A DNA stretch of 64,000 bases from a virus: positions 1 through 64,000 of IMG/VR virus record IMGVR_UViG_3300042522_000700. One strand, given 5' to 3'. The position numbers and the translations under genes were made by a program. This document shows positions 12,961-15,132 of this stretch, piece after piece (position 1 is the first letter of the stretch; each line of letters starts with the position of its first letter). The notes below the pieces were generated by a model. It worked only from the letters and a program-made list of their open reading frames with translations. It had not been told where the DNA came from and did not search any database.

Positions 12961-13323
12961 TCAGACCCGTGAATAACAGATGCTAGCTACACCTTGACTT
13001 GGAGAAGCAATTGTGGAAAATGCTCCATAAGACAAATCTAGATCTCTACCACCTACATAGGGACCACGATCATTCACACGCACAATCACTGATTTACCAT
13101 TTCGTTGATTAGTCACTCTTAACCTTGTTCCGAATGGCAACCACTTATGTGCTACCGATTTTCCATAAGCATTGTATCTTTCGCCATTGGCAGTTGTCTG
13201 CCCGTGATATCCGTCACCGATTCCATAATGAGAGGCGAGGGAACATCCGCTCGCTGCCTTTACTTGAAGGGGTGCTAGTCCTACAGCGGCAATGGCAAAA
13301 ATTGAAAGGGTTTTAAAAAGCAT
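12961..13323 (-). CDS. RlpA-like double-psi beta-barrel protein
   Basis: This 120-aa secreted protein has signal peptide MLFKTLSIFAIAAVGLAPLQ ending near VKA-A. A compact RlpA domain follows: ASHYG, NGERYN, LPFGTRLRVTN, VRVNDRGPYVGGRDLDLS. RlpA proteins are periplasmic lytic transglycosylases acting on denuded peptidoglycan. The conserved Asp in RDLDLS and the His in the domain start support activity. It could help lysis or local wall opening together with the endolysin at 13952-15132. It has its own sigma-70 promoter and a folded leader. Confidence 0.85.
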   Translation of the reverse strand: MLFKTLSIFAIAAVGLAPLQVKAASGCSLASHYGIGDGYHGQTTANGERYNAYGKSVAHKWLPFGTRLRVTNQRNGKSVIVRVNDRGPYVGGRDLDLSYGAFSTIASPSQGVASICYSRV

Positions 13324-13530: not shown

Positions 13531-13722
13531 ATGCCAAGAGAGTGGAACACTCCGATTAGGGAGCCATGGAATGCTCCTATACATAACACATTAAAAGCAA
13601 TTGATAATCACACTCAAGAATATTTCAAGAGTGGCGAGATTTGGCATCTACAAAAAGCAGATCAACTTAGGCAATATTTACACGAGTTGAAAACTTGGAT
13701 TCATAAACAAGAAGGAAGATGA
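13531..13722 (+). CDS. Small hypothetical protein
   Basis: This 63-aa protein MPREWNTPIREPWNAPIHNT is followed by a charged helix rich in His, Gln and Lys. It resembles a short protein conserved in cyanophages but without known function. Its stop overlaps the next start (ATGA), so the two are translated together. It is one of few plus-strand genes outside the fibre islands. Confidence 0.65.
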   Translation: MPREWNTPIREPWNAPIHNTLKAIDNHTQEYFKSGEIWHLQKADQLRQYLHELKTWIHKQEGR

Positions 13723-13955
13723 AAATACTAGACAAACTAATCATTATCATTGTTGTTTGTACTGTAGGATATGTTGGAATTACTTTTGTTAATTGTAACT
13801 ACATGGTTCCTGGATCAATTGAAAGTGCCAATGCAAAAGGCATATTAAAAAACCCCCCATCTATAAAGTGTGAGAACTCTATAGACAAAGGGTATAGTGC
13901 TTTGTTTACTATCTTTACAGCATTGCTTGGATTAAAAGCAAAGATGGAAGACTAA
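13719..13955 (+). CDS. Small protein with two membrane segments, possible holin-like
   Basis: The 78-aa protein has a hydrophobic helix at residues 3-25 (LDKLIIIIVVCTVGYVGITF) and a second, weaker one near the C-terminus (ALFTIFTALLGL). A polar, Cys-containing segment lies between them. The size and topology fit class II holins, and it is convergent with the endolysin gene (stops overlap). No family is recognised. The opposite strand means it would be expressed separately from the endolysin. Confidence 0.5.
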   Translation: MKILDKLIIIIVVCTVGYVGITFVNCNYMVPGSIESANAKGILKNPPSIKCENSIDKGYSALFTIFTALLGLKAKMED

Positions 13956-14431
13956 CTAATCCAAAGTTTACCTTCTGCTTTTCTTCTTCTTGCTAATCCT
14001 GCCTCTACATTACTACCAGGATTTCTATAAAGATAAAGAGCATCGGGTACTTTAGACCATTCTTTATTTTTTAATGTCCTTGTAATAGTATTGAAGTCAG
14101 GATGACCATAAAAATCTGCACCAAGATTGTAAGCAAAGCAAAGTAAAGCCCCCCTTTGATTGTCATTCATTTCCTCCCAGTATGGTATTTTGGCTAATTG
14201 TGGTAAAAATCTACGCTCGACATCATACATCAAATAATCATCTGCTTGCTGTTGAGTAATAAATTGTCCTAGCATAAAAGTAGATCCATCTGGTCTACGA
14301 GTACTGCCCCAACCTATAGTGATAGGAGCAGCACCTGTTTTAGGATCTGGATATGATTTTAAATGACAACCCTCAAACTCTTTAATAAGTGCTACTCCCT
14401 GTTGAGGAATAGCGGAAGCAACACTTTCTAC
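13952..14431 (-). CDS. GH24 lysozyme domain of the endolysin, in the -1 frame
   Basis: The frame open from 14431 to 13952 encodes a complete GH24 lysozyme. Near its start are KEFEGCHLKSYPDPKTG and ITIGWGS, giving the catalytic E-8aa-D and the Thr, and it ends with NQRGALLCFAYNLG and GLARRRKAE. There is no ATG, GTG or TTG before the catalytic Glu; the first ATG (14275) comes after the catalytic residues. The domain is therefore probably made only as a -1 fusion to the peptidase encoded upstream, giving 393 aa (234+159). The alternative is a frameshift mutation or a sequencing error in the A run. Confidence 0.8.
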   Translation of the reverse strand, partial: VESVASAIPQQGVALIKEFEGCHLKSYPDPKTGAAPITIGWGSTRRPDGSTFMLGQFITQQQADDYLMYDVERRFLPQLAKIPYWEEMNDNQRGALLCFAYNLGADFYGHPDFNTITRTLKNKEWSKVPDALYLYRNPGSNVEAGLARRRKAEGKLWIS

Positions 14432-14437
14432 TTTTTT
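14387..14437 (-). promoter_or_regulatory. Candidate -1 ribosomal frameshift site in the endolysin
   Basis: The minus strand reads GTA AAA AAG TAG. The heptamer A AAA AAG (14437-14431) is the slippery site known from E. coli dnaX and lies directly before the stop. After 4 nt, AAGTGTTGCT (14426-14417) pairs with AGTAGCACTT (14396-14387): 10 bp, two G-T, loop of 20 nt. Slipping back one base continues into the lysozyme frame as KK-VESVASA. Confidence 0.7.
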
Positions 14438-15132
14438 ACAGCATCAAAAACTCTACCCCACCCATCGTTACCTTTTGGACACCATCTACGAACAAGATCG
14501 CCTCGTTTGTACACAGCACCTATGCCGTTGGTCACGGGGCCAGTATATCCATCGTTAAGGCTTCCGTATGGGTCGTGAACGATGTAATCACCTGCTGGGG
14601 TCTTCCCCATCACAACTACCATATGGCCTCCTGTAGGGGCACCCAGAGACCCCCTGTGAAGGATGCCAATTACTATGGGACGTTTGGCAGAAAGTTCTCG
14701 GTCTAGGTCAGCAAATGTTAAGTTATATCTAAAAGCAGAATTAATGCCATACGACATCAATACTTTGGTTTGAACTGTGTGATCTGTAGTGTCTCCAGTA
14801 GCAAATACTTTTTGTACATAAGCATCATCACCCTTAGGTCCTTTGAGTGTGCCTGGTTTTAAATACTCTAAGCACATAGCACAGGCAGAACTATTACAAG
14901 TTCTCTGAGCATCTCTATAGTTATCTGTTTGAGGGAACCAAGGGAAATTTTCTAGAATATTAGTTGCTTGTTTTTGAGCAGATGTTCTAAATGTTTTTAC
15001 CCATTCAGAAGTATCTTCTAGTTGTTCTGGTGCTGATTTTTCTAAGGCACGTAAAAGTATTTCAGCTGCTTTTACGTGGTTGGGATTCTTCTCATCAAAA
15101 TGTTTGAAGAAGTTAAGTAAATTAATTTTCAT
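14428..15132 (-). CDS. C39-like cysteine peptidase, zero-frame part of the endolysin
   Basis: This 234-aa protein has a helical N-terminus (residues 1-55). A papain-like C39 domain follows: catalytic Cys in RTCNSSACAMC (Cys79 or Cys85), His170 in GGHMVVVMGKT and Asp187 in IVHDPYG. It would cut peptide bonds, probably in the peptidoglycan stem or cross-bridge. There is no signal peptide, as expected for a holin-dependent endolysin. The frame stops right after AAAAAAG, where the -1 frame enters the lysozyme. The ATG overlaps the stop of the upstream nuclease gene. Confidence 0.8.
   Translation of the reverse strand: MKINLLNFFKHFDEKNPNHVKAAEILLRALEKSAPEQLEDTSEWVKTFRTSAQKQATNILENFPWFPQTDNYRDAQRTCNSSACAMCLEYLKPGTLKGPKGDDAYVQKVFATGDTTDHTVQTKVLMSYGINSAFRYNLTFADLDRELSAKRPIVIGILHRGSLGAPTGGHMVVVMGKTPAGDYIVHDPYGSLNDGYTGPVTNGIGAVYKRGDLVRRWCPKGNDGWGRVFDAVKK

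Follow-up and report, generated by a model that had tools for sequence, protein, structure and literature searches.

Ribosomal frameshifting to the -1 frame at A AAA AAG is known from the Escherichia coli dnaX gene (tau/gamma), and frameshifting in phages is known from tail genes. To our knowledge, phage frameshift cassettes have been recognized almost solely in tail genes. In phage tail-assembly chaperones, such as lambda gpG/gpGT, a minority of ribosomes shift by -1, adding a C-terminal domain (Xu, Hendrix and Duda 2004, as cited in PMC3483164). Another related group is formed by two-polypeptide endolysins that arise by internal starts, described for CTP1L (PMC4777826), LysIME-EF1 (PMC7098653), and phi2638A (PMC12203907) and surveyed in PMC9430671. 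The word "frameshift" is absent from this survey, and no description of endolysin frameshifting was found in the literature searched, which yielded tail-gene matches only. Since subscription journals were mostly outside the coverage, this absence is weak evidence of novelty.

In the locus analyzed here, a cyanomyovirus endolysin gene very probably contains a programmed -1 ribosomal frameshift cassette, an assignment made without protein, ribosome-profile, or reporter data. Like E. coli dnaX, it has A AAA AAG followed by a hairpin of the same kind, and would yield two proteins with a common N-terminus. Unlike dnaX, the shift lengthens the product in this locus and in most relatives, the products are wall hydrolases, and an upstream Shine-Dalgarno element resembling that of dnaX has not been demonstrated. 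Tail-assembly chaperones are similar in that a -1 shift in a phage gene adds a C-terminal domain, with several of them using A AAA AAG, but the endolysin cassette would serve lysis rather than tail assembly, and the two systems are non-homologous. As in internal-start endolysins, a single lysin gene would give a long and a short protein; in those, an in-frame internal start leaves a shared C-terminus, whereas the frameshift endolysin has a shared N-terminus. Finally, in S-CREM1, the plain in-frame relatives, S-N03, and PSS2, this C39-like peptidase is joined to a glycosidase, usually with the same N-terminal module. The glycosidase partner in such cyanophage bifunctional endolysins is a GH24, GH19-like, or glucosaminidase-like domain; unlike the locus described here, each of them is one uninterrupted frame with one product.

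Peptidase and lysozyme frames

The window, a 64-kb stretch of an 88,015-base viral record, contains the endolysin locus on the minus strand. The 0-frame ORF (15132..14428) encodes a protein of 234 aa in which a small helical module at the N-terminus (about residues 1-50) precedes a C39-like cysteine peptidase (Pfam PF13529, E 2e-10, 41.8 bits against a cut-off of 24), with C79, H170, D187, and Q68 invariant in nine homologues. The ORF ends GTA AAA AAG TAG, so that the slippery heptamer A AAA AAG (14437..14431) is read in the 0 frame and adjoins the stop codon (14430..14428). The -1 frame (GTA GAA AGT ...) has 159 open codons (14431..13952, with the stop at 13952) that encode a complete GH24 lysozyme (PF00959, E 2e-21, 76.8 bits against a cut-off of 22.3). 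Alignment to solved GH24 lysozymes places its catalytic Glu, in the FEG motif, at 14374..14372. Between the heptamer and this codon, the -1 frame of the window locus contains no ATG, GTG, or TTG, and its earliest ATG (ORF 14275..13952) lies beyond both the catalytic Glu and Asp. The GH24 extension is reachable by frameshift only, as part of a 393-aa fusion, and the scheme of internal-start endolysins does not fit it. The sequence-only reading had proposed the same junction, the same start-less lysozyme frame, and products of 234 and 393 aa, all of which hold at the level of reading frames and domain matches.

A stem-loop starts 4 nt behind the heptamer. Its 5' arm (AAGTGTTGCTTCC, 14426..14414) pairs with a 3' arm (GGGAGTAGCACTT, 14399..14387) situated within the conserved coding stretch for GVALIKEFEG, forming 13 pairs (3 of them G-U) around a 14-nt loop, with a folding energy of -18 kcal/mol and a z-score of -4.1 against dinucleotide shuffles. 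The spacing agrees with what had been read from the letters alone, but the stem is longer than the 10 bp given there. The locus has these features of a -1 cassette: X XXY YYZ in the 0 frame, structured downstream RNA, and a conserved -1 coding region. Nowhere else in the 64 kb does a long open frame lead into a classical heptamer that is followed by a frame-0 stop no more than 15 codons away and by 60 or more open codons in -1; in-frame A AAA AAG as such occurs four times in the 17,228 codons of long ORFs in the window.

The role of the protein as an endolysin, acting in host lysis at the end of infection, is inferred by homology only, from PHROG lysis families. The match of phrog_10457, a PHROG family of 95-aa "endolysins", is confined to the C-terminal half of the window lysozyme (13952-14437, minus strand); this family may represent lysins whose gene models were cut short at frameshift loci. 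An RlpA-like double-psi beta-barrel lytic transglycosylase (12961-13323, minus strand; PF03330, E 7e-22), encoded about 600 nt past the lysozyme, is a third likely wall enzyme. In S-SZBM1, an RlpA gene is located near the same peptidase, and no lysozyme adjoins the latter. The plus-strand gene at 13719-13955 is convergent with the lysozyme end and slightly overlaps it; it encodes a 78-aa protein with a hydrophobic N-terminus and no match in Pfam or PHROG. A holin-like function for this protein is a guess.

Conservation of the heptamer and the hairpin

IMG/VR scans with the peptidase and the lysozyme, supplemented by GenBank cyanophages, gave 167 distinct junctions. The peptidase and lysozyme frames directly overlap in 85 of them, each time in the -1 register, and no +1 overlap occurs among the 167. 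The heptamer at the direct overlaps is A AAA AAG, as in the window, in 77 cases, T TTT TTT in five cases within the S-CAM7 clade, and A AAA AAA in one; two overlaps are heptamer-free. In the A AAA AAA overlap and both heptamer-free ones, ATG or GTG is present at the stop. Direct overlaps without a nearby ATG or GTG have an in-frame slippery heptamer in 69 of 69 cases (64 A AAA AAG and 5 T TTT TTT), or 56 of 56 after clustering at 90% nucleotide identity; 33 clusters are left at 80% identity. As the junctions are related, these counts do not represent independent events. A natural control is provided by 58 loci classed as having separate genes: the heptamer is absent in 57, and the peptidases mostly end in FD before the stop, without the AKK/VKK tail. 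The only exception (L303) is frameshift-like; its linker is longer, and it has a hairpin of its own. The distant phages S-N03, S-B68, S-CREM2, PSS2, S-CBS1, and S-CRES2, considered as further candidates, have in-frame or separate domains and no comparable junction.

The hairpin was evaluated by scoring stems that start 3-11 nt behind the heptamer, with synonymous codons redrawn from the usage of the same phages. The mean stem score is 10.0 versus 5.8 in the shuffles, and 49 of 67 clusters have a stem at p<=0.05. The spacer is mostly 3-8 nt. Folding energies agree: in 29 clusters at 80% identity, the mean z-score is -2.5 (Stouffer -13.5), compared to -0.7 and -0.3 in windows of the same loci displaced by +90 and +180 nt. 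A folding control on plain in-frame fusions gave z -1.3, but it drew its codons from other phages, which makes it unreliable. Three stem families can be distinguished by their 5' arms and by the codons at the beginning of the lysozyme (GVEL, CGVD, LVGI) with which these arms pair. Pairing is kept while the sequences change, with compensatory changes: in two of the families, both sides have changed in 6 of 12 and 6 of 13 pairs, and 93-96% of cells are paired versus 30-47% in a slid register. Sorting into families by the best stem biases these pair counts upward; the codon-shuffle test is independent of the sorting. Weak hairpins are found in a few loci (L004, L021, L087, and L257). Upstream Shine-Dalgarno-like stimulators are common in bacterial -1 frameshifting and are not obligatory. 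We observed no clear one here, the anti-Shine-Dalgarno pairing being -6.2 kcal/mol at frameshift loci versus -5.7 kcal/mol at separate loci.

Isolated phages provide several examples of the same organization. In Synechococcus phage S-PM2, the peptidase ends GCA AAA AAG TAA, and the lysozyme then follows in -1; the stem (AGCTCTACTTC/GGAGTAGAGCT) differs from that of the window, and the two genome records compared agree. In the S-PM2 annotation, this locus comprises a hypothetical protein and, from an internal start codon, a 72-codon "putative lysin". In S-CAM7, the sequence GTT TTT TTT CCA CAG TAG contains the T TTT TTT heptamer, followed by a bulged stem of 13 pairs (8+5; GTAGAACCaCCTAA/TTAGGGGTTCTAC); the heptamer and stem show no differences among three isolates, and here also the lysin is truncated in the annotation, next to a hypothetical protein. 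The S-CAM7 clade with its T-type heptamer is nested among plain in-frame fusions in the peptidase tree (99% branch), making a second origin of the split likely. S-SRM01 combines the heptamer with an ATGA-coupled lysozyme start.

Other phages organize the same domains differently. ACG-2014f has a single 405-aa frame, S-CREM1 has the domains fused in the opposite order, and DSL-LC02/LC03 encode the peptidase and lysozyme as separate genes. A locus of cyanophage type with 95% protein identity to DSL-LC02 was found in a contig filed under a Euryarchaeota MAG (L352), which is probably misbinned. Peptidases about 55% identical to that of the window occur in Oscillatoriales and Pseudanabaena contigs (L353, L354), as a prophage or host gene. 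In S-CREM2, S-N03, and S-B68 (L263, L266, and L267, respectively), the same kind of peptidase and module is accompanied by a GH19-like domain replacing GH24, in varying order. In S-CBP4 (L264, 1001-2460), an unannotated C39 peptidase-glucosaminidase-like lysin has a frame break inside the peptidase and an HNH-like ORF upstream.

Six in-frame fusions (ACG-2014f and its relatives, L137, and L161) retain A AAA AAG and the hairpin (z -1.7 to -3.0). Between them lies TCTGA or CCTGA, so a -1 slip would terminate after KKV or KKA. As read from the frames, this is the layout of dnaX, in which the default product is long and the shift shortens it; the same two products would arise from the opposite default frame. 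The relatives of ACG-2014f differ in the codons leading up to the heptamer (KVTA, KVVA, KVIA) but share the heptamer, TCTGA, and stem. A -1 TGA behind TCT is not sufficient evidence when taken alone, because it is also common in heptamer-free plain fusions, where it results from Ser-Glu/Asp codons; only the joint presence of the heptamer, hairpin, and stop counts. The heptamer-keeping fusions, though from two lineages only, offer the best support for both products being wanted. Some phages manage without two products, as the 16 plain in-frame fusions show. Uninterrupted relatives lacking the slippery site had been named in advance as a possible refutation of frameshifting; they do exist, but a split without a start codon is always accompanied by the heptamer. 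Heptamer and stem are conserved together with the frame break, the hairpin being present in most loci, and the 167 junctions strongly support the initial interpretation as programmed -1 frameshifting.

Alternative explanations

The same two products could result from transcriptional slippage, if RNA polymerase lengthened or shortened the homopolymer by an A (or U), leaving part of the mRNA in-frame. The sites are indeed homopolymers (A6, T8), and two of the 167 junctions (L243 and L262) have A7 instead of A6 in the DNA and are in-frame. However, A6G is a short run for polymerase slippage, ribosomal frameshifting predicts a hairpin of this kind, located 3-8 nt downstream and showing compensatory changes, and the in-frame relatives are arranged so that a -1 ribosome terminates immediately. 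We regard polymerase slippage as very unlikely. Still less credible is termination-reinitiation, where the lysozyme would have a separate start near the peptidase stop and no fusion would be made. In 13 heptamer loci and three others, the peptidase stop has an ATG or GTG close by, and reinitiation is usable in S-SRM01, L028, and L077, where the heptamer occurs together with an ATGA or GTGA start. Nevertheless, no start codon is hidden before the catalytic Glu in the window, nor is ATG, GTG, or TTG found there in 33 of 67 cluster representatives. Reinitiation leaves the heptamer and hairpin unexplained, and loss of A AAA AAG or T TTT TTT (L031, L036, and L048) is observed only in junctions with a nearby start.

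The remaining possibility, that the true gene is an in-frame fusion split by a sequencing or assembly error, or that the lysozyme is decaying, has been refuted in practice. Relatives with in-frame fusions exist, and the in-frame A7 junction of L262 is otherwise near-identical to the A6 frameshift junction of L325, a difference that reflects either an indel polymorphism or an assembly error. Error is ruled out by the recurrence of the same break in many independent contigs and isolates, including the S-PM2 and S-CAM7 records compared above. Seven A residues in place of six would have disproved the frameshift; contig L011, which comes from a different metagenome and is 99% identical, has A6 as well, as do both S-PM2 records. 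A pseudogene is excluded by the retained catalytic residues and by dN/dS of about 0.08-0.28 between related split loci, well below 1, values from which the lysozyme frame at frameshift loci is judged to be under purifying selection.

Two proposed products and their shared module

Programmed ribosomal frameshifting thus remains the preferred explanation. Comparison of the loci demonstrates the frameshift organization, its conservation, and selection on it, at the level of sequence; the occurrence and efficiency of slippage, as well as the dosing role proposed below, are inferred. Most ribosomes would reach peptidase-Lys-Lys-stop and release the 234-aa module-peptidase. The hairpin 4 nt downstream would hold the ribosome at A AAA AAG, and a fraction of ribosomes would slip one base back and translate the GH24 frame, producing the 393-aa module-peptidase-muramidase. 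In the predicted structure of an in-frame IMG/VR relative (mean pLDDT 72.6), the junction corresponds to a low-confidence interdomain linker, residues 234-239. The cassette may serve to set the dose of muramidase, always tethered to a module-bearing peptidase, with free peptidase in excess. The fixed ratio and tuning of lysis suggested by the sequence-only reading are likewise inferences.

C39-like peptidase and GH24 domains cleave different peptidoglycan bonds. In the frameshift and in-frame architectures and in most of the separate ones, the lysozyme is attached to the N-terminal module or to one resembling it: in DSL-LC02/LC03 it has its own copy of the module, and in the L098 group a related one. 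This suggests that both enzymes need the module, and that frameshifting spares the phage a second gene for supplying it to the lysozyme. By inference, the module is perhaps wall-binding. We lean, without strong conviction, toward the view that in many cyanomyoviruses, forming a large group, selection holds peptidase and peptidase-muramidase at a set ratio through -1 frameshifting. When the default frame flips from short to long, both products would be maintained through the slippery site, the hairpin, and a new -1 stop, with possible control of dose or timing.

In summary, the frameshift endolysin is well supported by the comparative data and unproven at the protein level. It would place a frameshift cassette in a lysis enzyme conserved in many cyanomyoviruses, including the model phage S-PM2, and many gene models would be corrected, among them the S-PM2 lysin annotated as a 72-aa fragment. 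The related loci form a natural series of solutions: frameshift, its dnaX-like inverse, in-frame fusion, coupled start, and separate gene with its own module. The importance of the ratio of two wall hydrolases for lysis becomes testable in cultured phages. If the proposed role is true, cyanomyoviruses would control the dose or timing of wall lysis at the level of translation, in a way undescribed for endolysins.
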